The notes below the pieces were generated by a model that saw only the letters and a list, made by a program, of their open reading frames with translations, was not told the DNA's origin and did no database searches. Source: a virus. From it: a DNA stretch of 22,323 nt. Shown here one piece after another: positions 2,660 through 17,630 of the stretch. The DNA is taken from the IMG/VR virus record IMGVR_UViG_3300000325_000027, positions 1 to 22,323 of that record; one strand, given 5' to 3'. The position numbers were made by a program, and so were the translations under genes. Positions within the stretch are counted from its first letter, which is position 1. Every line of letters begins with the position of its first letter.

Positions 2660-2865
2660 TTGAATCTGTTGTAGCTTTATGTATGTTTATAGCAGGAGAA
2701 CTAACAGAGCATCGTATTCAACCTGCAATGAGTGATTGTTTAAAAGGTAAGCGAGTTGCAGAAAGATCTTCTAGCGATAACATAGAATATAAATGTGGTA
2801 AAGTAGAAGCAGAAATAGAAAAAAATATTGATGGTAGCAAAGCAATAAAAAAAATAATAGAATGA
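2656..2865 (+). CDS. Small Cys-containing protein of unknown function
   Basis: This 69-residue protein has a short hydrophobic N-terminus (MIESVVALCMFIAG), three cysteines (9, 28 and 47) and a charged C-terminal half ending in DGSKAIKKIIE. The N-terminus could be a weak export signal or a membrane-associated helix, but it is short. I recall similar small proteins next to phage endolysins in marine phage contigs, with no known function. It overlaps both neighbours through ATGA junctions, so it is probably translated with the M15 peptidase immediately downstream. Confidence 0.5.
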   Translation: MIESVVALCMFIAGELTEHRIQPAMSDCLKGKRVAERSSSDNIEYKCGKVEAEIEKNIDGSKAIKKIIE

Positions 2866-3338
2866 ACCTTTCACAAAATTTCACTCTTCAAGAGTTAATC
2901 AAATCAGACACGGCTATACGTTTAGGGATTGATAATAATCCTAACTCTGATCAAATAGAAAAATTAAAAACATTATGTGAAAATGTATTGCAACCGGTCA
3001 GAGACCACTTCGGTAGAGTTAAAATCACATCAGGGTTCCGTACTATTCAGCTTTGCCAAGCTATAGGGAGTTCAGAAAAATCTCAACATGCAAAAGCCGA
3101 GGCGGTTGATTTCGAATGTATAGGAGTTGACAACGCTGAAGTAGCTGATTGGGTCCATATGAACTGTGAAACAGATCAGCTGATCCTCGAGTTTTACACA
3201 CCTGGAGAACCAAATTCCGGATGGATACACGCAAGTTACATACCTTATCAACCAAGAAGACAGTTTATGCATGCTTATAGAGAGAATAAAAAAGTTAAAT
3301 ACAAACCAATTATAGGAAAGGCGAAGGACTTAATATAA
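2862..3338 (+). CDS. M15-family peptidase, probable endolysin
   Basis: This 158-residue protein has the hallmarks of zinc-dependent D-Ala/L-Ala-type peptidases of family M15. An SGFRT motif lies at 57-61, a zinc pair His76-x6-Asp83 lies in SQHAKAEAVDFE, and a third ligand His123 lies in GWIHASY. Glu110 in ILEF is a candidate catalytic acid, though that assignment is uncertain. Such enzymes cut peptide bonds in peptidoglycan cross-bridges or stems. There is no signal peptide, so export would need a holin, for which the upstream small membrane genes are candidates. The length is normal for a single-domain phage enzyme. It overlaps the upstream gene by ATGA and the downstream gene by one base. 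A tail-associated lysin is less likely given the lysis-like context. Confidence 0.85.
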   Translation: MNLSQNFTLQELIKSDTAIRLGIDNNPNSDQIEKLKTLCENVLQPVRDHFGRVKITSGFRTIQLCQAIGSSEKSQHAKAEAVDFECIGVDNAEVADWVHMNCETDQLILEFYTPGEPNSGWIHASYIPYQPRRQFMHAYRENKKVKYKPIIGKAKDLI

Positions 3339-5810: not shown

Positions 5811-6794
5811 ATGGCTACTGGATGGGGTAAGAAAACATGGGGTGCAGAATCTTGGGGAGACCTAAGCGATACCTCCGTTAACCTTAGTAGCCTATCATTA
5901 ACAACATCAATTGGAACTGAAACAACATCTGCAAACGCTATTGTTTCAGTTTCAGGTATACAATTAACTTCTACTATTGTATCAGCAACAGCAGGGACTT
6001 CTGCTTTAGTTTTAGCTACTGGAAATTTAGAGTCTATGGCTGTTGGAAGTGTTTCAACACCTATTGGACAAGATGTTGCTGTATCTGGTTCACAATTAAC
6101 TTCTACTTCAGGAACTGCAACAGTAGATGACACAACTTTGACAGGAGAAGGTTGGGGTAGAGGTGAATGGGGAGAGTTTGCTTGGGGTGATAATTTTTCA
6201 GTTCAATTAACTGGTCTACAGGCTTCAGCAACTTTTGGTAGTGATGTTACTGCATTTACAGATGTTACCGCTTCAGTTACAGGACAACAATTAACTGCTT
6301 CTTTCTCTCATCCATCTTTTTCAATTCAAATTGACCAAGATATATTTGTATTAGCTTCGGAAGATCAATTAGATGCGTTAACTACATCCTCTACAGTAAC
6401 AGCAGATGCCAATGTAAGTGTAACAGGTATTCAAGCTACAATGTCTATAGGAACTGCTGTAGGTGGTCTTAAAACTCCAGTAGATGTTACAGGTATCCAA
6501 GCTACTATGACTTTGGGTTCTATAACCCTAATTCAATCAACTAATGAATCGGTTACCGGACAACAGTTAACAATGGCTCTTGGACAGCACGCAGATATAC
6601 CAGGTCAAATTATAGGTGTAGGAGGGTTACAATTAACAAGCTCTATAGGATCTGTAACAGCAGAGGGTGCTGCAAACATTGATGTTACAGGCATACAATT
6701 GACAGCTTCTGTTGGAAGCCTTAATATAACAGCATGGGCAGAAGTAGATCCAGACGTAAGTAATACTTGGCGAGAGGTTGATCGAGCTGCTTAA
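5811..6794 (+). CDS. Repetitive beta-rich virion protein with WG motifs
   Basis: This 327-residue protein is built from about nine copies of a short unit, roughly VTG-x-Q-L/A-T-x-S-x-G. The units centre near residues 48, 92, 134, 157, 205, 227, 249, 272 and 293, with irregular spacing of about 20-45. Two copies of a Trp motif with five-residue period (WGxxxWGxxxWGD) lie at 5-17 and 115-127. The C-terminus is AEVDPDVSNTWREVDRAA. Repetition and Thr/Ser/Val content suggest an extended beta structure exposed on the virion, perhaps a tail or neck fibre, since it lies directly before the tail fibre gene. No named family is recognised with confidence. Confidence 0.6.
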   Translation: MATGWGKKTWGAESWGDLSDTSVNLSSLSLTTSIGTETTSANAIVSVSGIQLTSTIVSATAGTSALVLATGNLESMAVGSVSTPIGQDVAVSGSQLTSTSGTATVDDTTLTGEGWGRGEWGEFAWGDNFSVQLTGLQASATFGSDVTAFTDVTASVTGQQLTASFSHPSFSIQIDQDIFVLASEDQLDALTTSSTVTADANVSVTGIQATMSIGTAVGGLKTPVDVTGIQATMTLGSITLIQSTNESVTGQQLTMALGQHADIPGQIIGVGGLQLTSSIGSVTAEGAANIDVTGIQLTASVGSLNITAWAEVDPDVSNTWREVDRAA

Positions 6795-6832: not shown

Positions 6833-8017
6833 ATGACATCTAGTTATTCTACAGATTTAAAACTCGAACTAATGGTGACTGGCGAAAACGCTGGTACATG
6901 GGGAGATTTAACAAATACAAACTTAAATGTAATTCAACAAGCAATCGCTGGTTTCGAACAAGTAACCTTATCAAGTGGTGGTACACTAGCACTTGTGATG
7001 TCAGACGGTGCGTTGTCAAACGCAAGAAACATGGTAATTAAATTTGCTACAGCTTCAATTGCTGCTAGCACAATTTGTACAATTCCAGATTCAATAGAAA
7101 AATTTTATATTTTTGATGCAACGGGTTTGACTAATCCAACTAACCTTACAATTAAAACTGCATCAGGTACTGGATTTACTTTAGACCAAGCAAAAATTTA
7201 CGCAGCATATTCTGATGGTACAAATTTAAATGAAATTTCATTAGACTCTTTAGGTGGCACTGTTGCTGCTGCAAATATTTCGGGCACGATTGCAACTTCG
7301 CAAATTGCAGATGATGCTGTGACTTCAGCAAAAATTGCTGACGATGCAATTACATCTGCCCTTATAGCAGATGATGCTGTTGGTGCGGATCAACTTGCTA
7401 ACACTGCAGTAACTGCAGCATCTTATACTACAGCTAACATAACTGTAGATGCACAGGGAAGACTTACTGCTGCATCTAGTGGAGCAGGCGGAGACGGAAG
7501 TTATGTTCCAAGATTAATTGCAAATGGACCTGCTTCAGGTAACTTAACTACACCAGGTAATGCATCAAAATTTTACGCTTACGTTTTTTCAGGTGGTGGA
7601 GGAGGTGGCTCACCATCCAATAGTAGATCAGCTGGCAGTGGAGGAGCGGGTGTTACTGGATTTTTTTCAGGAAATGCAGCAGCTTCCACAACTTATGCTT
7701 ACTCCGTAGGAGGAGCAGGAGCAGGGGGAAATAGAAATCCTGTACCCTCAGGACAGTATGGAAACCCTGGAAGTGCTGGTGGTGCCTCGTCAATTACTGG
7801 TTTAGTTCCTGCAGTAGCTGGTGGTAACGGAGGCCAAGGAGCACCGGATGCCCACGGACCGGCTATGTCCCCTGGAAACCCTGGTGCGGCAAATCCCGCA
7901 GCGGATTTTACATTACCGTTTGGTTATTTAGCTGGAAACTCTATTGCGAACGCTGGTGGTAACTCAGCCTCTGGTGGTGCGGGTCATATAACATTTTTTG
8001 ATGATGGGGGTCAATAA
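6833..8017 (+). CDS. Tail fibre / receptor-binding protein with Gly-rich tip
   Basis: This 394-residue protein begins with the segment SSYSTDLKLELMVTGENAGTWG, known from tail fibres of marine phages, where it likely anchors the fibre. A beta-rich region is followed by three near-identical ten-residue repeats (IADDAVTSAK, IADDAITSAL, IADDAVGADQ at about 158-187), a motif common in fibre shafts. Residues 220-394 are Gly/Ala/Ser/Pro-rich, including a run of six glycines at 254-259, and probably form the receptor-binding tip. The tip coding sequence is visibly richer in G+C than the genes on either side, suggesting exchange. The gene has its own AGGAGA ribosome site (6818-6823), and the next gene starts on its stop codon. 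Confidence 0.8.
   Translation: MTSSYSTDLKLELMVTGENAGTWGDLTNTNLNVIQQAIAGFEQVTLSSGGTLALVMSDGALSNARNMVIKFATASIAASTICTIPDSIEKFYIFDATGLTNPTNLTIKTASGTGFTLDQAKIYAAYSDGTNLNEISLDSLGGTVAAANISGTIATSQIADDAVTSAKIADDAITSALIADDAVGADQLANTAVTAASYTTANITVDAQGRLTAASSGAGGDGSYVPRLIANGPASGNLTTPGNASKFYAYVFSGGGGGGSPSNSRSAGSGGAGVTGFFSGNAAASTTYAYSVGGAGAGGNRNPVPSGQYGNPGSAGGASSITGLVPAVAGGNGGQGAPDAHGPAMSPGNPGAANPAADFTLPFGYLAGNSIANAGGNSASGGAGHITFFDDGGQ
7304..7393 (+). repeat. Three 30-base repeats in the fibre shaft
   Basis: Three in-frame 30-base units each begin with the codons for Ile-Ala-Asp-Asp-Ala (GCAGATGATGCTGT in the first and third). They encode the ten-residue shaft repeat of the tail fibre. Such repeats can expand, contract or serve as crossover points between fibres. 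Confidence 0.7.
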
Positions 8018-8460
8018 TGGCTTACGTAATTGAATTAAACAACGAAGTAGTTAATTTTGCAGAAAACGAAACACAGAAAAATGATTTAATTCATTTTTTT
8101 CCACCCGCTGTATCTCATGAAATAAGTGATGAAAATTTTACTAAAATTAAAAAAAATTTAGCAGTAGTATCTGTTTCTGGGGGAGTTATATCAATAACAG
8201 AAAACGCTCAATACGCTACTGATGAGTTTGCGCCTGACGAAACTTCATTAAAACAATATCATAACGTATTAAAGGGACTACTAAAAGTTTATTTAAATGC
8301 TCATAACACTAGCCATTCAATTTATTCTGACGCACAGAGTTATTATAATACTTTAAATACTTTAGATTATTCAACATTAACTTTTCCTTTTATCGGGACT
8401 TGGGAAAAATATTGTGAAGATAACTCAATAACTTATATACATACTTTACAAATACCTTAA
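8017..8460 (+). CDS. Unknown protein directly after the fibre; possible fibre chaperone
   Basis: This 147-residue acidic to neutral protein has no membrane segment or signal peptide. It starts with a beta-strand-like MAYVIELNNEVVNFAENE, and the second half is helical and Tyr-rich (YHNVLKGLLKVYLNA, SDAQSYYNTLNTLDY) with a terminal WEKYCEDNSI. Its ATG overlaps the tail fibre stop by one base, the place usually held by tail fibre assembly proteins (Tfa or gp38-like) that fold or cap the fibre tip. I see no sequence match to those families, so the chaperone idea rests on position only. It could equally be a tip-bound adhesin. Confidence 0.4.
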   Translation: MAYVIELNNEVVNFAENETQKNDLIHFFPPAVSHEISDENFTKIKKNLAVVSVSGGVISITENAQYATDEFAPDETSLKQYHNVLKGLLKVYLNAHNTSHSIYSDAQSYYNTLNTLDYSTLTFPFIGTWEKYCEDNSITYIHTLQIP

Positions 8461-8479
8461 TTAGTATACAAAATACTTA

Positions 8480-9229
8480 ATGTTTGAAAACGTTATTAAA
8501 TTTAAGGCGTGTAAAGAATATGTTGAAAACAACAAAGATATTTTTCCTGTACCGACAAAAACTAATATTCCGGAGTGGTTTAAAAAATTAGAGCACTCGG
8601 CTACAAATCAAACAATTAAGGGATGTATACCCTTTTTAGAAACTCTAACTTCAGGCTATCTACTAAAGATGCCAATAGATTATCTAATAGAACATAATGT
8701 GGATTTTAAGGATAAAAAACAAGCTGGTTTTATGACTGGAATTTATCCAGATAATAATTTATCTAATAAGATAAATATTAACTATACTGATAGACCATCT
8801 TCACATCCAATTAAGCAATTAGGGGGTAGTCCTTTAGTTGATAAAAATAAAAAACTTCCTTTTCATAAAATATTAAATCCTTGGCAAATAGAAACCCCTC
8901 CTGGGTATTCAACTCTTTTTGTACCTCCTTTAAATAATTCAGATGATAGATTTTCTATAATTCCAGGTATTGTAGATACTGATTCTTTTGTTAACACTCA
9001 TGAAATTAATTTTCCAATCGTAATAAATGGGGACAAATACGAAACACTATGTTCAACAATTAAAAGAGGTACTCCTTATGTTCAATTAATTCCTTTCAAA
9101 AGAGATGATTGGAAGATGAAAATAGAAAACACCGAGGATAATAAAATAAGTGTGAATAAATTTTTTCAAGTTAAACATGTTGTTCATAATTATAAAAAAG
9201 TTTTTTGGCGAAAAAAATCATGGAAATAA
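8480..9229 (+). CDS. DUF6065-like protein
   Basis: This 249-residue protein shows the motif set I associate with DUF6065 and related phage proteins. These are NPWQIETPPGYS (133-144), a following PGIVDTDSF segment (162-170) and a C-terminal IKRGTPYVQLIPFKRDDW (194-211) on a probable double-stranded beta-helix or cupin-like core. No biochemical function is established for that family. The gene is markedly AT-rich, lacks a good ribosome site, and is followed by a 2OG-oxygenase-like gene overlapping it by ten bases. This suggests the two moved together as cargo and may share a substrate. Similar gene pairs are seen in cyanophage and pelagiphage tail regions (from memory). Confidence 0.5.
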   Translation: MFENVIKFKACKEYVENNKDIFPVPTKTNIPEWFKKLEHSATNQTIKGCIPFLETLTSGYLLKMPIDYLIEHNVDFKDKKQAGFMTGIYPDNNLSNKININYTDRPSSHPIKQLGGSPLVDKNKKLPFHKILNPWQIETPPGYSTLFVPPLNNSDDRFSIIPGIVDTDSFVNTHEINFPIVINGDKYETLCSTIKRGTPYVQLIPFKRDDWKMKIENTEDNKISVNKFFQVKHVVHNYKKVFWRKKSWK

Positions 9230-9813
9230 GAGAAAGTGTATCAAACTACATAGTAACATTTGATAATGTAGTTCCAAATAAAGTATTAAATAGTTTTTAT
9301 AAGTATTGTAAATATAATACTGATTTTACCAAGGCACAAATTATTGGCGAAAAAAAAGATAGATCCTCTGAAATAATTAATGAAAACGTTAGAAATGTTA
9401 GTAGTTTAAGATTAGATAAATATACTAATAGTCTTACTCAAATACATTGGGCTAATTTACTTAATTTTACTTTCTCTTATTTTATAAAAGAATACCAAAT
9501 TATTTTAAATATGAACAATATTAGTTTTAAAATTACAAATATAGATCTTTTAAAATACCAAAAAGAGGGACATTACAGTTTTCATGTTGATGATTGTGAA
9601 GGTTATCATAGAACTTTTAGTTGTATTCTACTTATTAATGATGAGTATGAAGGTGGTGATTTATTTTTTAAAAATGTAGTAACAAAAGAAATAACTAAAA
9701 TTAATAAAGTTAAAAACAGAATTATTATATGGCCAAGTAATTTTTTATTTCCACATAAAATTTCACCAGTAACAAAAGGAGAAAGGTTTTCGGTGGTAGC
9801 ATGGGCAGTATAG
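9220..9813 (+). CDS. 2OG-Fe(II) oxygenase, prolyl-4-hydroxylase-like
   Basis: This 197-residue protein ends in a textbook-order oxygenase core: His122-x-Asp124 in YSFHVDD, then YEGGDLFF (143-150), a distal His179 in FPHKISPV, and Arg189 in GERFSVVAW placed to bind 2-oxoglutarate. This is the layout of prolyl-4-hydroxylase-type (PKHD/P4Hc) enzymes, which use O2 and 2-oxoglutarate to hydroxylate protein side chains or other substrates. The substrate is not visible. I chose ATG 9220; a TTG at 9205 is the only upstream option and would add five residues. The gene overlaps both neighbours by 10-13 bases, is very AT-rich, and lies two genes after the tail fibre, so a virion protein is a reasonable target to suspect. 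Confidence 0.8.
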   Translation: MEIRESVSNYIVTFDNVVPNKVLNSFYKYCKYNTDFTKAQIIGEKKDRSSEIINENVRNVSSLRLDKYTNSLTQIHWANLLNFTFSYFIKEYQIILNMNNISFKITNIDLLKYQKEGHYSFHVDDCEGYHRTFSCILLINDEYEGGDLFFKNVVTKEITKINKVKNRIIIWPSNFLFPHKISPVTKGERFSVVAWAV

Positions 9814-10346
9814 GAAAAGACTTTAAATATAAAATAATAAAAAACTTTTTATCGAAAGACGAAAGGGATATATTAACAATATATTGTGAAATTAAACACA
9901 GAAATAACTTTAGTAGTTTTGATTTTGACCAAAGTAACAACGCAGACACTAGATACTATGGAGATGCTGTAATAGATTCATTATTAGTAAAAAAGAAAAA
10001 ACTAATAGAAAGAGAATGTGGAAAAAACCTTTTAGGAACTTATTCTTTTTGGAGAGCTTATACTAGATTTGCTGATTTACCAAAGCACACAGATAGACCA
10101 GCTTGTGAAATAAGTGTAACAGTTAGTATTGGTGGGGATGATGTAAAGTGGCCTATTTTTATGGACGGTACTTCTATCAGCTTAGAAAAAGGAGATGCCG
10201 CACTTTATCTGGGTTGTGAAGTTTCTCATTGGAGAGAAGAATTTGAAGGTGATTGTCAGTTTCAATGTTTCCTACATTACGTAGATGCAGATGGTGAAAA
10301 TAAACAACAGTATTTAGATAAAAGAAACAATTGGGGGCAGTCGTGA
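9801..10346 (+). CDS. 2OG-Fe(II) oxygenase-like protein, second copy type
   Basis: This 181-residue protein carries the motif order seen in a marine-phage oxygenase family. WRAYTRFADLPKHTDRPACE holds His96-x-Asp98, then KWPIFMDG, then a Gly/Asp turn (LEKGDAALYLGCE), then His143 in VSHWREEFEG, and finally QFQCFLHYVDADG. The two histidines and the aspartate would bind Fe(II). The basic residue expected about ten positions after the distal His is not evident (Gln153 there), and Arg145 is the nearest candidate, so co-substrate binding may differ. It is not closely related to the neighbouring oxygenase (different motif context), so this is not a simple tandem duplication. It overlaps the previous gene by 13 bases and the next by GTGA. 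Confidence 0.7.
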   Translation: MGSIGKDFKYKIIKNFLSKDERDILTIYCEIKHRNNFSSFDFDQSNNADTRYYGDAVIDSLLVKKKKLIERECGKNLLGTYSFWRAYTRFADLPKHTDRPACEISVTVSIGGDDVKWPIFMDGTSISLEKGDAALYLGCEVSHWREEFEGDCQFQCFLHYVDADGENKQQYLDKRNNWGQS

Positions 10347-10579
10347 AAATAACCCAAAACAAGGACGGTAGTGGAGAAATTAGTTTTACAGATCAAGAAA
10401 TTGATATTTTACAAAAAAAGAAAAAACTTATTTTACCTCTTCCTTTTTTAAAGGATTTTATAAACCTATTTATGGGCTTATTTTTTGAAATGCATAAAAA
10501 AATGGATAAAGATTTAGTAAGGTCTACTACACAAAAAGACAAAAATATAGATATAAACGAACCTAATAGTAAGGTTTAA
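10343..10579 (+). CDS. Small Lys-rich protein with hydrophobic middle
   Basis: I chose the GTG at 10343, which overlaps the upstream TGA as GTGA and has a G-rich stretch (10332-10337) as a possible ribosome site. A TTG at 10331 would add four residues. The 78-residue product has an N-terminal beta hairpin-like KITQNKDGSGEISFTDQE, a KKKKLILPLP run and an amphipathic or membrane-touching helix (FLKDFINLFMGLFFEM), and ends in a polar tail. I recognise no family. It closes the AT-rich cargo block after the oxygenases, and a 29-base gap separates it from the gp10-like gene. Confidence 0.45.
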   Translation: MKITQNKDGSGEISFTDQEIDILQKKKKLILPLPFLKDFINLFMGLFFEMHKKMDKDLVRSTTQKDKNIDINEPNSKV

Positions 10580-10603
10580 TTGTTGATTGCATTGAGGTAT
10601 AAT
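10575..10603 (+). promoter_or_regulatory. Possible promoter at the gp10-like gene
   Basis: A perfect TATAAT (10598-10603) lies in the 29-base gap before the ATG at 10609, with a poor -35 (TTTAAT, 10575-10580) at 17 bases. A start point six bases downstream would fall on the ATG itself, giving a leaderless message. Alternatively GAGGT (10594-10598), which overlaps the -10, may simply be the ribosome site of a longer transcript. Confidence 0.25.
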
Positions 10604-10608
10604 AGCCT

Positions 10609-12762
10609 ATGCCTTTAACAAAAGTACAAATAGCACCCGGATTCAACAAACAAGTAACTGAAACAGGCGCAGAAGGTCAATGGACTGATGGCGACTTTGT
10701 GAGGTTTCGATATGGGCTACCTGAAAAAATAGGTGGTTGGGAACAGCTTGTTAACGCATCTTTAGTAGGTGCAGCAAGAGAACAATTTATTTGGGCTGAT
10801 TTAGACGGCAGAAGATATGCTGCAATAGGTACAAATAAAGTTTTAATAATTTATTACGAGAGTTCCTTTTATGATATTACACCACTAGGGACAGCTATAA
10901 CTGGATGCACATTTGATACTGTAAATACTTCAGCAACAGTTACCGTCAATAAGGCCGCACACACACTTCAACCAGGAGATTTATTTACATTTACTTCAGT
11001 AACTCCTCCAACAGGAGCAGGTTACAGTGCATCAGATTTTGAAACAAATACTTTTCAAGTGGTCACTGTTCCAAATAGTGATACATTCACTATTACAATG
11101 GCTAGCGCAGCAGGGACCACGGTCAACGGAAGTGGATCTGCAACAGTCAATCCGTACATTAGTGCAGGTGCTTTAGGGTTTACTTATGGATTTGGTTGGG
11201 GAACAGGATTGTGGGGCGGAGGCCAACAAGTATTTGGAACTCTTAACGGAGCTTTACTAGATGATACCGCAGGTACTGGAGGATCTGGGACTTCCATTAC
11301 ACTTGCATCAACAACTGGATTTCCAACTTCTGGAACAATAAAGGTTGGCGCTGAATTTATTTCTTATACTGGTATATCTACGAATGATCTTACAGGGATT
11401 ACTAGAGCAACTGGAGGCACTAGATCTGCTCATGCGTCTGGATCTGGTGTTGAATACTACACTGGTTGGGGACAAGCTTCTTTATCTTCTACATTAACAA
11501 TAGATGCTGCCTCATGGTCTTTAGATAATTTTGGAGAAAAATTAATTGCTACTATTAAAAACGGTAAAACTTTTGAATGGAATCCTATTAACTCTAACCC
11601 AAATGCATTGACCACAAGAGCAACGGTTGTAAGTGGTGCACCAACAGCATCTGTTATGTCTTTAGTTTCAGATAGAGATAGACATTTACTTATGCTTGGA
11701 ACTGAAACCACTATTGGAAGTAGTGGTACTCAAGATAAAATGTTTATAAGATTTTCTGATCAAGAAGATATAAGTGATTATACACCAACTTCAGTAAACA
11801 CTGCTGGTACTTTTAGAATAGATGCTGGTACTAAAATAGTAGGAGCAGTAAAAGGAAAAGATTATACTTTAGTGCTTACGGATAATTCAGCATATGTAAT
11901 TCAATTTGTTGGTCCCCCTTTTACTTTTTCAATTAGACAAGTAGGTTCTAACTGTGGAGCGATAGGTCAACACTCTATTAAATACGTTAATGGTGCTGTC
12001 TATTGGATGGGAGAGTCTGGCGGCCTCTTTGTTTATGATGGTACTGTTAAATCTTTACCATGCAAAGTTGAAGATTTTGTGTTTACAAATAAAGGGGACA
12101 ATCTTGGTATTAATTATGCTAATGGTGAATCAGTATACGTAGGCTTAAATCATTTATATGAAGAGCTTACTTGGTTTTATCCTAAAGCTGGATCCGATTT
12201 TAATGATAGATGCGTAACGTATAATTACCAAAGCGGAACTTGGACAACAGGTTCTTTAGCAAGGACTACATGGATAGATGCAAATTTATACGATGTTCCT
12301 TATGCAACTGAATTCACTTCAACAACCACACCAACTTTTCCTTTAATTCAGGGAGTAACAAGCATAAATGGTGGAACTATTTACTACGCTCATGAAACAG
12401 GAATTAATCAAGTTGATACCGCTGGGAATAAAACAGCGATACTTGCCTTTATTGAATCAGGTGACTTTAGTTTAAACGTTGAGGGTGATGCTCAAGTATT
12501 TATGAGTATGAAAAGATTTGTCCCTGATTTTAAATTAATTGAAGGTAATGCACAAATTACAATACAGTTAAGAGACTTTCCTAGCGACAGCCAAGCTTCT
12601 TCACCTCTAGGACCATTTACAGTAACCTCAACCACTGATAAGGTAGACACAAGAGCTAGAGCAAGATTTGCTAGTTTAAAAATTGCAAATACATCTACCG
12701 ATCAAAATTGGAGATTTGGAACTTTTAGAGCTGATGTACAACCCGATGGTATGAGAGGATAA
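10609..12762 (+). CDS. P22 gp10-like DNA-stabilisation / tail hub protein
   Basis: This 717-residue protein opens with the segment typical of the P22 gp10 family (Phage_stabilise): LTKVQIAPGFNKQVTE, then W-DGDFVRFRYGLPEKIGGW at 26-44. In P22 this protein closes the portal channel and stabilises packaged DNA. The rest is beta-rich, consistent with a propeller-like fold, for example SDRDRHLLMLGTE and AVYWMGESGGLFVYDG. Two segments look inserted relative to a compact core. One, about 101-183, has an HTLQPGDLFTF motif; the other, about 220-283, has GTIKVGAEFISYTG. Both resemble small beta modules found in many phage tail proteins. The next gene starts on its stop codon. Confidence 0.8.
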   Translation: MPLTKVQIAPGFNKQVTETGAEGQWTDGDFVRFRYGLPEKIGGWEQLVNASLVGAAREQFIWADLDGRRYAAIGTNKVLIIYYESSFYDITPLGTAITGCTFDTVNTSATVTVNKAAHTLQPGDLFTFTSVTPPTGAGYSASDFETNTFQVVTVPNSDTFTITMASAAGTTVNGSGSATVNPYISAGALGFTYGFGWGTGLWGGGQQVFGTLNGALLDDTAGTGGSGTSITLASTTGFPTSGTIKVGAEFISYTGISTNDLTGITRATGGTRSAHASGSGVEYYTGWGQASLSSTLTIDAASWSLDNFGEKLIATIKNGKTFEWNPINSNPNALTTRATVVSGAPTASVMSLVSDRDRHLLMLGTETTIGSSGTQDKMFIRFSDQEDISDYTPTSVNTAGTFRIDAGTKIVGAVKGKDYTLVLTDNSAYVIQFVGPPFTFSIRQVGSNCGAIGQHSIKYVNGAVYWMGESGGLFVYDGTVKSLPCKVEDFVFTNKGDNLGINYANGESVYVGLNHLYEELTWFYPKAGSDFNDRCVTYNYQSGTWTTGSLARTTWIDANLYDVPYATEFTSTTTPTFPLIQGVTSINGGTIYYAHETGINQVDTAGNKTAILAFIESGDFSLNVEGDAQVFMSMKRFVPDFKLIEGNAQITIQLRDFPSDSQASSPLGPFTVTSTTDKVDTRARARFASLKIANTSTDQNWRFGTFRADVQPDGMRG

Positions 12763-13346
12763 TGGACGAAATATTTTTACAAGATTATGCTAACAATGTA
12801 GCACAAGCTCAAGATCCTTTTGGTATTGCGGCAGTACAATCACAACCAGGATTTGAAAACTATCAACCTAGTTTTGCAAACCAAGAGTTAGCTCCTATGG
12901 GCTTAACTGAACCTCAAGGAACACAACTACCAGACTTTAAGGAAATGGCAAAAAACGTAGCTGAAAATCAAGCTAAAAATTTTTTAATTAAAAAAATTGG
13001 TTTAGAGGGTATTCAAGGAAATATATTAAGCTCAGTCTTAGGGGCTAACCCTTACGTTCAAGGTATAGCAACTATAGGATCTGCCCTTACTGGCAATTCT
13101 TTGAATATGTCAAATATTTTAGCGCAAAAAAGAGCTGAAAAGAATTACGAAATGAATCAGAGAAGAATGCAAAATGAATTAAATAAACAACAAACACAAG
13201 AAATACAAAAAAGATTAGACGCACAACCTGTATCAGATCAAGACAGAGGAAGAGGACAAACACGTTCGTCTCCAACACCTTCTGCTAGACAATCTAGACA
13301 ATCTAGACAAACATCAGGGTCAGGTGGCTTACATAGTGGGTATTAA
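12762..13346 (+). CDS. Probable minor virion protein, Gln-rich
   Basis: This 194-residue protein has an Asn/Gln-rich N-terminus, a central hydrophobic stretch (NILSSVLGANPYVQGIATIGSALTG) and a charged Arg/Gln-rich helix (AQKRAEKNYEMNQRRMQNELNKQQ). The C-terminus is low-complexity, with three SRQ repeats and GSGGLHSGY. Hydrophobic centre plus coiled Gln-rich helix is seen in small ejection or internal proteins, but no family is recognised. It sits between the gp10-like gene and other small structural genes, joined to both by one-base TAATG overlaps. Confidence 0.45.
   Translation: MDEIFLQDYANNVAQAQDPFGIAAVQSQPGFENYQPSFANQELAPMGLTEPQGTQLPDFKEMAKNVAENQAKNFLIKKIGLEGIQGNILSSVLGANPYVQGIATIGSALTGNSLNMSNILAQKRAEKNYEMNQRRMQNELNKQQTQEIQKRLDAQPVSDQDRGRGQTRSSPTPSARQSRQSRQTSGSGGLHSGY
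13285..13311 (+). repeat. Three 9-base tandem repeats
   Basis: The unit CTAGACAAT occurs three times in tandem (the last ends in A) and encodes Ser-Arg-Gln repeats near the C-terminus of the upstream-starting gene. It is a simple in-frame expansion of the kind that slippage produces. Confidence 0.8.
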
Positions 13347-13510
13347 TGGCTAGAGTAGATATAGTAATTCCAGAGCCAAGCTCTACTTATTCACAAGAAA
13401 ATCAAAGACAGGTAAGTCAGTCTTTACGAACGATGCAAGATAAGTTAAATACTTCTTATCAACAAGAATTAAAAAATGAACAAGATGCATTTAATTATTT
13501 TTTATTATGA
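13346..13510 (+). CDS. 54-residue helical protein of unknown function
   Basis: This short frame begins on the stop codon of the previous gene (TAATG) and ends in an ATGA overlap with the next, so it fills its slot exactly. The product begins MARVDIVIPEPSSTYSQENQ and continues as a polar helix (SLRTMQDKLNTSYQQELKNEQDAF) with a hydrophobic end NYFLL. I recall the pattern LNTSYQQ-LKNEQ--F from small proteins of marine phages between gp10-like and ejection genes, without known function. The perfect packing between two overlap junctions is the best sign that it is real. Confidence 0.6.
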   Translation: MARVDIVIPEPSSTYSQENQRQVSQSLRTMQDKLNTSYQQELKNEQDAFNYFLL

Positions 13511-13842
13511 CAATTAGATACAAAAGCGATACATTTAGTTTGACTACAACAAACGTTACTACAGTTTTAACGTGCCCAGCAGATGCAACGGTGCTTGTTA
13601 AAAACTTACAAGCAGTTCATGATACAGCTAGCAATGTGGATACTTATGCCTTGCTGACAAAGTCCGGTGGTTCCGCTGTTAAAATAGCTTACAAAGAACT
13701 TAATAAAACTCAAGCTAACATGATAGAAGAAACTTTATCTATGGAAGCAAGTGATGTTTTATCAATGCAAGCAGGAACAGCTAACGAAATAACAGGTGTT
13801 GTAAGTTATGCTCTTATAGACAGATCACAAGAAAATGGCTAG
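13507..13842 (+). CDS. Small beta-rich protein, probable virion component
   Basis: This 111-residue protein is a beta-type polypeptide: MTIRYKSDTFSLTTTNVTTVL, then VLVKNLQAVHDTAS, VDTYALLTKSGGSAVKIAY, a helical or loop segment, and a C-terminal EITGVVSYALIDRSQENG. The sequence pattern fits a small beta-sandwich with no catalytic motif. It resembles in general shape the protein at 35-325 (KSGG followed by a strand in both), and both may be decoration, adaptor or neck parts; this is inference. The start overlaps the previous stop (ATGA), and the next small gene begins eight bases before its end. Confidence 0.55.
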   Translation: MTIRYKSDTFSLTTTNVTTVLTCPADATVLVKNLQAVHDTASNVDTYALLTKSGGSAVKIAYKELNKTQANMIEETLSMEASDVLSMQAGTANEITGVVSYALIDRSQENG

Positions 13843-13972
13843 AAAATTTAAAGACTTTCGGGAAAGAGATAAGCCCAGTAAAAGACCTAGAAGACACTGT
13901 AAGTCACCAAATAAAAAAAAGAAATTGCAAAATAATAAGAAGTATAATAGACAAGGGCGTAGACAAAAATAA
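13835..13972 (+). CDS. 45-residue very basic protein
   Basis: This short frame begins inside the last codons of the upstream gene in another frame. It encodes a peptide with about half its residues basic (MARKFKDFRERDKPSKRPRR, one Cys, then PNKKKK and a KYNRQGRRQK end). The RPRRH-K and KKYNRQGR pattern is one I recall from small conserved proteins in other marine phages. The charge suggests binding to DNA or RNA, perhaps a packaged protamine-like peptide, but there is no direct evidence. It is the second such basic mini-protein here (compare 3338-3469). An AGGAGA site for the next gene follows its stop. Confidence 0.55.
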   Translation: MARKFKDFRERDKPSKRPRRHCKSPNKKKKLQNNKKYNRQGRRQK

Positions 13973-13973
13973 C

Positions 13974-13979
13974 AGGAGA
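13974..13979 (+). promoter_or_regulatory. Ribosome binding site AGGAGA
   Basis: AGGAGA lies five bases before the ATG at 13985 and fixes that start. It falls in a 12-base gap after the stop of the small basic gene. Confidence 0.7.
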
Positions 13980-13984
13980 ATTAA

Positions 13985-14182
13985 ATGAATGATTTACCTA
14001 AAATCCCTGCAGAAGCAAAAGAAATTATAAAACATAAAAGAACAGGCAAAGTATATGTTAGTAAAACTGATTTTGATAATGATGTTGCTGATCCCAATAC
14101 TGATACTACTGTGGATGACTTTAGACAAGACCTTGAAATCAAAGTTACTAAAGTTTCTATGGGTGCGCTAACAAAAAAATAA
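13985..14182 (+). CDS. 65-residue protein of unknown function
   Basis: This small acidic-to-neutral protein contains KHKRTGKVYVSKTDFDNDVADPNTDTTVDDFRQD-like segments: a beta hairpin (RTGKVYVSK), then an Asp-rich loop with the pattern DVADP-TDTT--DFRQD, then a strand (LEIKVTKV). I recall this Asp-rich pattern from small phage proteins near tail genes without an assigned role. It has a strong AGGAGA ribosome site and ends on the start codon of the oxygenase-like gene (TAATG), so the cargo genes that follow are translated with it. Confidence 0.5.
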   Translation: MNDLPKIPAEAKEIIKHKRTGKVYVSKTDFDNDVADPNTDTTVDDFRQDLEIKVTKVSMGALTKK

Positions 14183-14775
14183 TGATTAATATAATTGACG
14201 GTTTTTATGAACCTAACCATTTAGGATTAATAGTTTTAAATTTTGTAAATCTACATTTTGAAAGCAAACACCAACCTTTTGAAAGATACTTTGGTGGTGA
14301 TAGAAAATTAGGCTATCCAGTTTACGAGACAGCTAAACTAGTTAAAGGTGGGGATTTAGCTCCCTATAATATATTTGCAGAAACATGGGAAAAAAAGTCT
14401 AAAATAAAACCCTTATATATAAATACATTTTTTAGAAAAACTAAATTATCTGAACTCAAAGAGTCACCTTCATGGAAGCAATATAAACCACATTGTGATC
14501 AAGAATATTTTGATATAGCTGGTTTATTATATTTCAATTCATCCTTTCTTAAAGATGGAACTTATATTTTTAATGCTAAGCATGATTATGAACCAACTGT
14601 GATTGTGGGTTCAAAATATAATAGATGTGTTTGGTATAATCCTTCACTTCCTCACTCACCAACTATGGAACAAAAAGTAGAAGAAAGGTGGGTCCAACCT
14701 TTTTTTATAATACATAAGGAAGAAACATTAAAAAAATATCTAAACGAAGTAGGTATTAAAAAATATGAATCCTAG
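14182..14775 (+). CDS. 2OG-Fe(II) oxygenase-like protein, third type
   Basis: This 197-residue protein keeps the iron-site order in its C-terminal half: His104-x-Asp106 in YKPHCDQEY, strands AGLLYFNSSF and GTYIF, a distal His158 in YNPSLPHSP, and Arg169 in VEERWVQPFFI as possible 2-oxoglutarate ligand. The segment PHxD...GLLYFN...NPxLPHxP resembles the DUF6445 and related oxygenase-like families in phages. The N-terminal half (1-95) holds YPVYETAKLV and is unassigned. The substrate is unknown. It overlaps the downstream glycosyltransferase by 11 bases, so the three genes 14182-16562 look like one modification unit. It is distinct in sequence from the two oxygenases at 9220-10346. Confidence 0.65.
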   Translation: MINIIDGFYEPNHLGLIVLNFVNLHFESKHQPFERYFGGDRKLGYPVYETAKLVKGGDLAPYNIFAETWEKKSKIKPLYINTFFRKTKLSELKESPSWKQYKPHCDQEYFDIAGLLYFNSSFLKDGTYIFNAKHDYEPTVIVGSKYNRCVWYNPSLPHSPTMEQKVEERWVQPFFIIHKEETLKKYLNEVGIKKYES

Positions 14776-15700
14776 AGGCGCAACCGAAATACAAATGGAG
14801 ATGCTGAATAAGTATGTCTCAAAGGATTTATTAGATCAAGTACAGATTTGTACTTCTATTCCTGGTAAAGTTCCCTTAGCTCCGGATAAACTTAATATTC
14901 TCTGGCAAAAAAATTCTTGGGACCAACCTAACCTACAAAAGTTTTTTACCAATAAATCAAGAAATAAAGAATATGATTGGTACGTATTCAATAGTCATTG
15001 GAATTATGAGAAGTTTAGATATGCTTTCGATATACCCACAGAAAAATCTGTAGTAATAAAAAATGGTATAGACAGTTTTCCAATTAGGAAGATATATAAA
15101 AGAGGAACTCCTATAAAATTAATACATCACTGCACTCCTTGGAGAGGTTTAAATGTTTTATTGCGTGCAATGCAAGAAGTTGAAAACCCTAATATAATGT
15201 TAGATGTGTACAGTTCTTGTAAAGTATATGGATCTGAGTTTTCAGACACTACAGAAAAAGATTTTGAAGAGTTGTATGAACAAGCTAAACAATTACCTAA
15301 CGTTAATTATATTGGTTACAAACCACATGAATATATAAAAGAAATGATGCCTAATTATGATATGTTTGTATACCCATCTATATTTGAAGAAACATCTTGT
15401 GCATCAGCACTAGAAGCTTTAGCATCAGGAGTACATGTAATCACTAATAATTTTGGAGCTTTGTATGAAACTTGTGCAGAGTGGCCCGTATACATTAATT
15501 ACTCAAAAAATTACGAACAGATGGCGGAGGATACAGGAGCAGCTATTAATGTAGCAGCATCTTATTTACATGAAAATTTTATGCAAGAACATCTGCAAGA
15601 ACAACAAAACTTTTACAAAAGATTTTATAGCTGGGAAAAAAAGGGTATAGAGTGGACAAACTTTTTGAAAGGAGCTTTAAATGAAAGAAACAGTAAATGA
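14765..15700 (+). CDS. GT-B glycosyltransferase, GT4-like
   Basis: This 311-residue protein has a short N-terminal domain opening with NPRGATEIQMEML, a linker with FNSHWNYEKF and VVIKNGID (93-103), and a C-terminal Rossmann domain beginning KLIHHCTPWRGLNVLLRAM (118-136). The donor-site signature is EX7E: Glu209 and Glu217 in FEETSCASALEALASG. This is the retaining GT4-type arrangement that transfers a sugar from a nucleotide donor. It is shorter than most GT4 enzymes (about 350-400 residues), mainly in the N-terminal domain. The acceptor is unknown: a virion protein, phage DNA or host glycan are all possible. It overlaps genes on both sides, including the next glycosyltransferase by 20 bases. 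Confidence 0.8.
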   Translation: MNPRGATEIQMEMLNKYVSKDLLDQVQICTSIPGKVPLAPDKLNILWQKNSWDQPNLQKFFTNKSRNKEYDWYVFNSHWNYEKFRYAFDIPTEKSVVIKNGIDSFPIRKIYKRGTPIKLIHHCTPWRGLNVLLRAMQEVENPNIMLDVYSSCKVYGSEFSDTTEKDFEELYEQAKQLPNVNYIGYKPHEYIKEMMPNYDMFVYPSIFEETSCASALEALASGVHVITNNFGALYETCAEWPVYINYSKNYEQMAEDTGAAINVAASYLHENFMQEHLQEQQNFYKRFYSWEKKGIEWTNFLKGALNERNSK

Positions 15701-16562
15701 AGACACTTACCAAACTTTAAAAGAAGTTGCGGTAACATCATACGAAAAAGCAACTCTTCCTATGTGGAAACCGGACACCGGACAAAAAGAAGAAAAGAAA
15801 ATAACTAAGTCACCCTATAACATTATGATTTGTACACCTTGCCATAGTGATGTGACTATGCATTACACGCAAGCTCTTTTAGAATTACAACAACTTTGTA
15901 TTAAAAAAGGAATAAGAATAACATTTACTTTGTTAAAATCCTCTTTGGTGACTCAAGGAAGAAATTTATGTGTTTCAGCTTTTTTAGATTCTAATTGTAC
16001 ACATATGTTATTTGTAGATTCAGACATATATTTTAGAGCAGAATCTATTATTAAAATGTTAGATCTAGACAAAGAATTAATATCTATTCCTTACCCACTT
16101 AAAACTATGATGTGGGATAAACTTTATAAAAAGTGGAATGATGGTGAAGTTAAAAACGCTGGAGATATACATAGATGGTTAAATACATACCCAATGAAAG
16201 TAGCAGATGTTAATAACATAACTTTAGATAGTGGTGTTATGGAAGTTACACATAGTCCTACAGGATGTATGCTAATTAAAAGAGCAGTGTTTGACAAGAT
16301 GATAAAAAAATATCCAGATAAAAACATAGTTCAAAAGACAGTTATAAATGGTGAGTATGTAGATAGACCTCATTTATGGAACTTTTTTGATTGTATACAT
16401 GACCCTGAGACTAAGACATATTTAGGTGAAGATTTTTCTTTTTGTAAGCTTTGGAAAGATATCGGGGGTAAATGTTATGTCTTTGTTAATGACCCAATCA
16501 TCCATGTAGGCGAACATCAGTACGAAGGATGTTTTAGAGACGAGTTGAAACTAGCCGACTAA
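15681..16562 (+). CDS. GT-A-like glycosyltransferase
   Basis: This 293-residue protein has a GT-A-like core. IMICTPCHSDVTMHY (48-62) starts the fold, LKSSLVTQGRNLCVSAFLDS follows, and a DxD-type motif lies in MLFVDSDIYF (Asp113, Asp115), which would bind a metal and nucleotide sugar. The segment LISIPYPLKTMMWDK and the later SPTGCMLIKRAVF and LGEDFSFCKLW are recurrent in glycosyltransferases of marine phages. The first 45 residues are a charged, probably flexible extension. A good GAAAGGAG ribosome site precedes the ATG. It overlaps the upstream GT-B gene by 20 bases and carries the candidate promoter of the next unit at its end. Cys-rich spacing suggests no disulphides in the reducing cytoplasm; the substrate is unknown. 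Confidence 0.75.
   Translation: MKETVNEDTYQTLKEVAVTSYEKATLPMWKPDTGQKEEKKITKSPYNIMICTPCHSDVTMHYTQALLELQQLCIKKGIRITFTLLKSSLVTQGRNLCVSAFLDSNCTHMLFVDSDIYFRAESIIKMLDLDKELISIPYPLKTMMWDKLYKKWNDGEVKNAGDIHRWLNTYPMKVADVNNITLDSGVMEVTHSPTGCMLIKRAVFDKMIKKYPDKNIVQKTVINGEYVDRPHLWNFFDCIHDPETKTYLGEDFSFCKLWKDIGGKCYVFVNDPIIHVGEHQYEGCFRDELKLAD
15771..15785 (+). repeat. 15-base G+C-rich repeat, copy 1
   Basis: CCGGACACCGGACAA occurs here, in frame as Pro-Asp-Thr-Gly-Gln (residues 31-35 of the GT-A-like protein), and identically at 17160-17174. It contains an internal seven-base duplication (CCGGACA twice). Confidence 0.85.
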
Positions 16563-16573
16563 AATGGTATTAT
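16545..16573 (+). promoter_or_regulatory. Near-consensus sigma70 promoter before the ejection-protein genes
   Basis: TTGAAA (16545-16550, one base from consensus) and TATTAT (16568-16573, one base from consensus) are 17 bases apart, and TGG before the -10 supplies an extended -10 (TGn). A start near 16580 leaves about 30 untranslated bases, including AGGAGA at 16595-16600, before the ATG at 16611. The -35 lies in the last codons of the glycosyltransferase gene. This is the best promoter in the window and would let the host polymerase express the internal virion genes separately from the genes upstream. Confidence 0.7.
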
Positions 16574-16610
16574 TTCATACTTAAGATCTTAATTAGGAGA
16601 ATTTATATTA

Positions 16611-17630
16611 ATGTTACAATTTTTACCCTACGCATTAGCAGCCTACGGAGGTTATAAAGGATACAAGGGCGCCAAAGATTCAGGTGCTTCTGGATTACAA
16701 AGAATACTTGGAGGTGCCTTAGGTGCTTACAGTGGTTACAATTTAGGACAAGTAGGTGGTTTTGCAAAGGGTGCTGGGTTTGGAAACGCAGCTTCAGCTA
16801 ATTTTGTACCTACCTTTAGTAGCCTTCCTGGAGTAAGTGGCCTGCCTGGAATGGGTGGTGCTCAAGATCCTAGTACTATGTCTAAATTCTTAGGTGTAGA
16901 CAGAGACGGAAGTATGATTCCAAATCCAAATTATATTGAACAAGGAACTAGTGGTGGAAATCTTTTAGATATTTTGAAAAGACAAAAAGCTGATGGAACA
17001 GGAATGGAATACAGCCCAGGAAAAGTTTCAGCTGCAATTGCTGCAGGAACTTATTTAAGTGGTGCGTTTGATCCACAACCAACAGATGTTTATATGCCTG
17101 GATACAATATGAATTATTTAAACATGAAAGAAAAGAGACCTCAATATACATACATAGACCCGGACACCGGACAAGAAAAAGCATACGAAAAAATTTATTC
17201 TCCTGAAGAAGCAGGACGAGGTGATCCAAGAATGGGTCCTTACTCAGTAAATGTTCAAAGATTTAATACCGGAGGACTATCAAGTATTCAAAAATTTAAT
17301 GAAGGTGGTATTAACTATCTTCCATCAAAAGTTTCACATGACGAAAATGATGCTAACAACTATGTTAGAGCATCCGGTTATGTAGAGGACGGAGAAGGCG
17401 TAGGAGACAAAGACGAGGATACAATGTTAGCTCAATTAGCAGACGGAGAGTTTGTAACAAGAGCAGATGGAGTATTAGGTGCTGGAATCATAGCTGGAGG
17501 AAATCCAAATAGTATGAAAGATATGAGAGAAAAAGGTGCCCAATATTTCTATGAACAACAAAAAAGATACAAGCGTGTATTTGATTTATTACAGGATAGA
17601 AATGGCAACAGCAAACAAAAAACAAATTAA
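16611..17630 (+). CDS. Probable internal virion / ejection protein
   Basis: This 339-residue protein starts with a Gly/Ala/Tyr-rich hydrophobic segment (LPYALAAYGGYKGYKGA, LGGALGAYSGYNLG), suggestive of membrane insertion or helical packing. The middle is Gly/Pro-rich. The C-terminus holds two FNxGG motifs (about 222 and 232) and the segment TMLAQLADGEFVTRADGVLGAG, which I recall from many phage proteins next to ejection genes. Helical tail residues follow. It has its own promoter candidate and ribosome site and leads the run of internal virion genes. P22- and T7-like phages place ejection proteins after the tail genes, which fits. Function is inferred from position and composition. Confidence 0.55.
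   Translation: MLQFLPYALAAYGGYKGYKGAKDSGASGLQRILGGALGAYSGYNLGQVGGFAKGAGFGNAASANFVPTFSSLPGVSGLPGMGGAQDPSTMSKFLGVDRDGSMIPNPNYIEQGTSGGNLLDILKRQKADGTGMEYSPGKVSAAIAAGTYLSGAFDPQPTDVYMPGYNMNYLNMKEKRPQYTYIDPDTGQEKAYEKIYSPEEAGRGDPRMGPYSVNVQRFNTGGLSSIQKFNEGGINYLPSKVSHDENDANNYVRASGYVEDGEGVGDKDEDTMLAQLADGEFVTRADGVLGAGIIAGGNPNSMKDMREKGAQYFYEQQKRYKRVFDLLQDRNGNSKQKTN
17160..17174 (+). repeat. 15-base G+C-rich repeat, copy 2
   Basis: This is an exact copy of the sequence at 15771-15785. It is again read in frame as Pro-Asp-Thr-Gly-Gln, inside an unrelated virion protein gene, with rare (for this window) codons CCG GAC ACC. Confidence 0.85.

Follow-up and report, generated by a model that had tools for sequence, protein, structure and literature searches.

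Oxygenase and glycosyltransferase genes in a pelagiphage tail block

We analyzed a 22,323-bp virus fragment from IMG/VR (record IMGVR_UViG_3300000325_000027; hereafter, the window), the genes of which read, by PHROG matches and sequence, as a tail and virion block, and focused on five putative modification enzymes encoded in it: three 2-oxoglutarate (2OG)-Fe(II) oxygenases (OG1, OG2 and OG3) and two glycosyltransferases (GTs), GT-B and GT-A. The window is a piece of an HTVC023P-type pelagiphage, with HTVC023P and HTVC027P as its closest named relatives and, probably, SAR11 bacteria as its hosts. Because the genes from fib5811 to u18928 encode proteins 100% identical to those of a 58.1-kb IMG/VR contig (L003), the window and this contig very probably represent the same phage. 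Phages of the HTVC023P type have been described as widespread; they infect SAR11, which are among the most abundant marine bacteria.

The five reading frames, which the original prediction combined into one system that hydroxylates and then glycosylates a phage protein, are all present at the coordinates given there, and their location inside the tail gene block is real. OG1 and OG2 are situated downstream of a Gly-rich fiber protein (43 Gly within the final 170 residues) and upstream of the virion structural protein stab10609. OG3 follows a small gene, q13985, that encodes a protein of 65 amino acids (aa), and overlaps GT-B by 11 bp; GT-B, in turn, overlaps GT-A by 20 bp (Table 1).

Identity of the three oxygenases

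OG1 matches the Pfam profile 2OG-FeII_Oxy_3 (PF13640, E=7e-15), through which the double-stranded beta-helix is assigned. Its iron site is H127/D129/H184 when counted from the TTG start at 9205, or H122/D124/H179 from the ATG at 9220; both histidines are invariant across a broad set of 135 homologs, and Asp129 is present in the window copy. The superfamily binds 2OG through a basic residue about ten positions past the distal histidine; the window OG1 has R194 at H+10. OG2 produced no Pfam match in the profile search and belongs, by its match to PHROG 2954 (1.5e-46), to a large marine-phage family (156 phage records), cyanophages included. Here, H96/D98/H143 are kept in 97–98% of 91 relatives; a Gln (Q155, H+12) and an Arg (H+2) are conserved as well. 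Judged by this H-x-D...H site, the OG2 family, named "ferrochelatase" in PHROG, looks like a 2OG protein family.

OG3 was the doubtful case, with weak profile matches (PHROG 1644, 9e-10; PHROG 274, 2e-5), no oxygenase match when its profile was compared with PDB sequences, and no match to named phages by tblastn, IMG/VR being searched instead. H104, D106, H158 and R169 (H+11) are invariant in 11 homologs with 47–70% identity to the window copy. In a fold search with the AlphaFold model (pLDDT 77, pTM 0.80), the top rows were all 2OG oxygenases, including 3dkq (Z 13.0, root-mean-square deviation (rmsd) 3.0 over 155 residues), PHD2, PiuC and a bacterial prolyl 4-hydroxylase (P4H). Conservation combined with the predicted fold thus identifies OG3 as a genuine 2OG-Fe(II) oxygenase.

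The motif alone is weak evidence because a loose H-x-D/E...H...R/K pattern matched 399 of 998 open reading frames (ORFs) of 130–260 aa in the loci of relatives, that is, 40% of the ORFs of similar size, and the regular expression was dropped as a classifier. Confirmation of the oxygenases rests on profiles, conservation and fold, which support the three iron sites where the original prediction had placed them. Its proposal that the three enzymes are not recent duplicates holds as well: iterated profiles shared no members between OG1 and OG2 or between OG2 and OG3, and 11 between OG1 and OG3.

Several PHROG families matched by OG1–OG3 or by the slot ORFs described below (274, 1644, 2954, 3531 and 2297) are labeled "DNA endonuclease V", "minor coat protein", "ferrochelatase" or "DNA endonuclease", although their members appear to be 2OG-Fe(II) proteins by motif, Pfam or fold. 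Because proteins of these families have 2OG profiles, motifs or fold, we rejected "ferrochelatase", "DNA endonuclease V" and "minor coat protein" as names; the labels look like annotation errors that have spread into genome records.

A constant glycosyltransferase pair

The two GT genes predicted next to the third oxygenase proved genuine by profile, motif and, for GT-A, fold. GT-B matches Glycos_transf_1 (PF00534) over cut-off (1.5e-14), its EX7E motif being visible as EETSCASALE. In GT-A, the DxD motif (D113/D115) is invariant in 30 homologs, down to T4-like relatives, and a structure search with the model returned GT-A folds, the best matches being LH3 (Z 15.9), STIV A197 (Z 15.3), COLGALT1 (Z 13.5) and mimivirus R699; these matches to a predicted structure indicate the fold, not the substrate.

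Loci of relatives were gathered using OG3, GT-B, stab10609 and q13985 as queries, all window genes were mapped onto them, and dereplication at 97% left 97 distinct loci. Both GTs follow q13985 in 99/99 loci where this gene has 3.5 kb or more of sequence downstream. They are also present in 95/95 loci where stab10609, a gene for which a separate search without the GTs was made as well, is followed by 5.5 kb or more. Both counts pool loci from all queries, with some redundancy. GT-A comes immediately after GT-B in 78 of the 79 testable dereplicated loci. The order q13985, GT-B, GT-A is therefore a constant core. With median identities to the window of 86% (q13985) and 81% (GT-B), core proteins are among the best conserved of the block, whereas OG1 (39%) and l8017, a small protein encoded upstream of it (38%), are among the least conserved. 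Beyond GT-A, every ORF that is not part of the core is large and of structural type.

Such a pair could glycosylate phage DNA as protection from restriction, like the T4 alpha- and beta-glucosyltransferases, with the oxygenases either unrelated or pre-oxidizing the bases. This possibility carries some weight because homologs of both GTs co-occur in the T4-superfamily phages phiM12, phiN3, Cr30, DLP6 and Ochrobactrum phage OC, where the GT-A homolog adjoins recombination genes gp46/47 and the sliding clamp gene. A study of HTVC023P-type phages also reports thymidylate synthase and aG/PT-PPlase in three clades (Wittmers et al. 2022, PMC9599517). However, among 13 GT-pair records, which include the complete genomes of HTVC023P and HTVC027P as well as the 58.1-kb contig that matches the window, and eleven of which may be fragments, none contained PF00303 (thymidylate synthase/dCMP hydroxymethylase) or TET/JBP over cut-off; a C5-methyltransferase was found in five, none of them HTVC023P, HTVC027P or the 58.1-kb contig. 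DNA is disfavored as the sugar acceptor because no thymidylate synthase/hydroxymethylase or TET/JBP genes were found; the GT and oxygenase genes, moreover, sit in the structural block. We consider DNA glycosylation unlikely.

Exchange slots flanking the 65-aa gene

The interval between q13985 and GT-B, occupied by OG3 in the window, is filled with one or more genes in 32 of the 97 dereplicated loci and empty in about two thirds (slot 2). Just upstream, between p13507 and q13985, lies slot 1, filled in 36 of 91 loci; the two slots tend to be filled together (odds ratio 9, p=5e-6, relatedness not corrected for). When slot 2 is empty, the q13985 stop and the GT-B start normally overlap as TAATG; in the window, the same TAATG joins q13985 to OG3, which then overlaps GT-B. 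Insertions into the slots are precise and retain tight coupling to the adjoining genes.

The 103 distinct slot ORFs fall into ~20 unrelated clusters, all but one of which are recognizable tailoring enzymes. By classes assigned from cluster representatives and bulk scans, from which single members could differ, 85 ORFs (83%) belong to 2OG/JmjC/cupin-type clusters, 18 of these by cupin/JmjC-type profiles only, and some fillers match JmjC_2. The rest comprise 11 Nol-like carbamoyltransferases, two sugar-binding-region GTs, one tryptophan halogenase, one RMNT_CmcI methyltransferase (locus L086) and three ORFs without identity. Since slot 2 holds varied, unrelated families across relatives, OG3 is one of many slot-2 fillers.

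Mapped on the GT-B tree, the filled/empty label requires 24 changes, and shuffled labels require 24.7. Of the 12 pairs with GT-B at least 97% identical, 58% do not share the same slot content. The slots turn over faster than the core diverges, with a possible contribution from GT-B recombination. By-eye inspection revealed no clear relationship between slot fill and p13507 type. The lack of phylogenetic signal in the fill pattern, as well as the frequency of 2OG genes among the auxiliary genes of marine phages, would be expected if the slots were neutral insertion hot spots for any small auxiliary gene, without a common function. That is very unlikely in view of the nearly uniform tailoring character of the fillers, the retained coupling to adjoining genes and the correlated fill of both slots.

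The filler repertoire also bears on the possibility that the GTs alter host surface glycans late in infection, counteracting superinfection or virion trapping, with the slot enzymes tailoring that glycan. The Nol-like carbamoyltransferase and the RMNT_CmcI rhamnosyl O-methyltransferase come from families with known sugar-acting members, and modification of lipopolysaccharide by pelagiphage GTs has been proposed previously, as cited in PMC9599517. We nevertheless regard this as improbable: most fillers are 2OG/JmjC/cupin proteins, the nearest folds of OG3 include many protein hydroxylases, the GT genes are located among tail genes, and no membrane-protein partner was identified within the window.

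Individual fillers merit separate mention. A tryptophan-halogenase homolog (PF04820, 4e-93) occupies slot 2 directly upstream of the GT pair in only one of the 97 loci (L223:5241-6761). VirX1 is a marine viral flavin halogenase, and VirX1/PHROG 2928 is comparable in type to the L223 protein, the activity of which is predicted from sequence. Nol/NodU-like carbamoyltransferases recur in the slots (L085:4145-5644, L065:2374-3744, L226:5695-7203), often beside a 2OG oxygenase, and some copies are split across two frames (L100, L153). A slot-2 family of ~170 aa (L098:8372-8881, L118:12708-13223, L132:4443-4946) has an HHDAGY motif in its L098 representative, which matches nothing in Pfam or PHROG and nothing convincingly among PDB sequences; a suggested identity as UPF0489 peptide-arginase received no support from these searches and was dropped.

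A separate adhesin-linked cassette

OG1 and OG2 are accompanied, between the Gly-rich fiber protein and stab10609, by the small genes l8017 and m8480. Of the dereplicated loci, 33 extend far enough upstream to be assessed, and 23 of these contain all four genes. Among loci lacking l8017 and m8480, both oxygenases occur in only 2/10 (p=3e-6 for co-occurrence, relatedness not corrected for), with the proviso that the cassette profiles may miss very divergent homologs, HTVC023P having four 2OG-type fiber-region genes by annotation. The OG1/OG2 adhesin cassette is fast-evolving and separate from the GT unit. The m8480 family (PHROG 7084) has an unusual distribution, its named-phage homologs being confined to haloarchaeal tailed viruses (Hafunaviridae and relatives).

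The oxygenases might instead serve host takeover by hydroxylating proteins of the host, EF-Tu or ribosomal proteins for example, their place in the tail block being incidental. Tpa1, OGFOD1 and Pseudomonas P4H, the last with a structure determined together with EF-Tu, are among the fold neighbors of OG3, and the JmjC_2 matches among the slot fillers point in the same direction. Yet one specific position inside the structural block is re-used repeatedly, OG1 and OG2 vary jointly with adhesin-linked genes, and host-directed enzymes would hardly need strain-level swapping at a single tail locus, which makes host takeover quite unlikely.

Table 1. Genes and exchange slots of the tail block (window coordinates)
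Feature	Position	Strand	Basis
fib5811, tail/fiber-like repeat protein, start of adhesin region	5811..6794	+	sequence repeats; homolog upstream of fib6833 in relatives
fib6833, tail fiber/adhesin, Gly-rich C-terminal region	6833..8017	+	PHROG 31104, 892 tail fiber; composition in relatives
l8017, small fast-evolving protein, adhesin cassette	8017..8460	+	median 38% identity in relatives; linked to OG1/OG2
m8480, PHROG 7084 protein, function unassigned, adhesin cassette	8480..9229	+	PHROG 9.4e-42
OG1, P4H-superfamily 2OG-Fe(II) oxygenase	9205..9813 (TTG 9205 or ATG 9220 start)	+	PF13640 7e-15; H127/D129/H184
OG2, probable 2OG-Fe(II) oxygenase family to which the misnomer "ferrochelatase" is often applied	9801..10346	+	PHROG 2954 1.5e-46; H96/D98/H143 conserved; cyanophage homologs
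n10331, 82-aa protein of unassigned function, between OG2 and tail protein	10331..10579	+	homologs in some relatives
stab10609, tail/virion structural protein, conserved anchor	10609..12762	+	PHROG 3287 virion structural protein 1.4e-86
p13507, 111-aa protein, left border of slot 1	13507..13842	+	C-terminal SYALIDRSQENG conserved in relatives
Exchange slot 1 (p-q), empty in window phage	13843..13984	+	filled in 36/91 dereplicated relatives
q13985, 65-aa core protein between both slots	13985..14182	+	median 86% identity; in 97/97 dereplicated relatives
OG3, 2OG-Fe(II) oxygenase occupying slot 2 (q to GT-B)	14182..14775	+	H104/D106/H158/R169 invariant; predicted fold
GT-B glycosyltransferase, core gene	14765..15700	+	PF00534 1.5e-14; in all testable relatives
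GT-A glycosyltransferase (PHROG 1574), core gene	15681..16562	+	PHROG 8.2e-39; DxD invariant; predicted GT-A fold

Two proposed tailoring modules in place of one pathway

The proposed division into two modification cassettes survives in outline, with OG1 and OG2 joined to adhesin-linked genes and OG3 to the GT pair, but the five genes do not form a single system. Every testable relative has both GTs, and the OG3 slot is empty in about two thirds of the dereplicated loci. Co-occurrence across relatives had been suggested as a check, and by this check gene presence varies independently, even between close relatives. Because the GT pair persists without OG3, the GTs cannot depend on hydroxylation by OG3; they may depend on OG1 and OG2 where these occur. 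The pattern that the relatives do share is a different one, namely, that both slots hold almost only tailoring enzymes. The single five-gene system is thus rejected, and what stands is a core pair of GTs accompanied by slots for the exchange of oxygenases.

Our explanation, in which our confidence is evenly divided, is that the tail block contains two separate virion-tailoring modules that combine a constant sugar step with swappable oxidation steps. In the first module, OG1 and OG2, traveling with two variable small proteins by the Gly-rich adhesin, would most likely hydroxylate this adhesin or its partner. In the second, the constant unit would consist of the 65-aa protein, GT-B and GT-A, with the GT pair putting a short sugar onto a constant phage target, perhaps the 65-aa protein itself or a tail protein. 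The slots would recruit different oxygenases, carbamoyltransferases and other tailoring enzymes, which probably make strains differ in the chemical make-up of a tail or virion protein or of the sugar that it carries. OG3 would be the current filler in the window phage. Both modules might serve receptor binding or escape from host defense.

The two-module explanation builds on observed enzyme families, the predicted folds of OG3 and GT-A, the universality and adjacency of the GT pair, the slot positions, the filler identities and the rapid turnover. From these we infer late expression, enzyme activity and virion proteins as the substrate. Tail or adhesin proteins of the virion appear to be the likeliest substrates because of the position in the structural block, the linkage of OG1 and OG2 to adhesin genes and the predominance of tailoring enzymes among the slot fillers. 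A more specific and tentative version, which we consider possible although less than even, is a dedicated virion-protein tailoring locus. Its GT pair would stay constant, and its combinatorial slots would let pelagiphages swap hydroxylases and carbamoyltransferases, and also a halogenase or a methyltransferase, which would make one tail protein chemically different between strains.

Several points weigh against tailoring of virion proteins. The T4-superfamily phages listed above, which have both GT families in one genome, as in the window, carry the two genes far apart, among replication or nucleotide genes, whereas the window GTs lie in the tail block. Small molecules, nucleic acids and host proteins are also possible substrates of 2OG enzymes. 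Other 2OG matches lie outside the slots in the same genomes, for example, at 5931-6131 of the 58.1-kb contig, such that 2OG genes are not exclusive to the slots. Finally, the modification itself is deduced from the genes. If virion tailoring is correct, phage surfaces would evolve through chemistry as well as sequence, and this tail locus would be a concrete place to seek the targets of many phage 2OG oxygenases.

Relation to known systems

Collagen modification, in which human LH3 and COLGALT1 (and mimivirus relatives) provide a 2OG oxygenase and a GT that act in sequence on a protein, is one of the closest known systems, and both human enzymes are fold matches of the GT-A model. The resemblance is at ~15% identity, and the LH3 match covers chain residues 293-520, which we take to be an accessory domain, not the catalytic GT domain. 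The phage genes also differ in being separate, and the oxygenase beside the phage GTs is dispensable. STIV A197 and PBCV-1 A64R are, like the phage GT-A, small virus-encoded GT-A enzymes. STIV A197 is the best full-chain match (rmsd 2.5 over 161 residues), with a weak sequence match (E=0.025), and the PBCV-1 capsid glycosyltransferase (2p6w) is among the fold matches. The substrate of STIV A197 has only been proposed, and we know of no pairing of either enzyme with a GT-B and oxygenase slots.

For the phage group to which the window belongs, three GTs are already published, together with eight 2OG-Fe(II) gene groups that are not orthologous to each other and often adjoin a "ferrochelatase" (Wittmers et al. 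2022, PMC9599517). That paper treats the "ferrochelatase" as a separate partner, whereas here the OG2 family so named looks like a 2OG protein. In the sections consulted, we found no description of the core GT pair, the two fixed slots or the carbamoyltransferase, halogenase and methyltransferase fillers, and our literature search found, within the collection covered, no tested case of tail modification by a phage 2OG enzyme or carbamoyltransferase.

Other features of the window

A promoter and terminator scan of positions 8000-17000 gave counts not above those for shuffled sequences (36 vs 40.2 and 4 vs 4.4, respectively). The block includes a peptidase M15-like gene (2862-3338), the HTVC023P homolog of which is annotated as peptidase M15; it is a probable endolysin-type enzyme. 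Upstream, at 1349-2659, several short genes show ~82% DNA identity to an early-region segment of HTVC027P and also match HTVC024P, HTVC203P and HTVC106P, at ~82% DNA identity on the opposite strand, which suggests gene exchange between pelagiphage groups.

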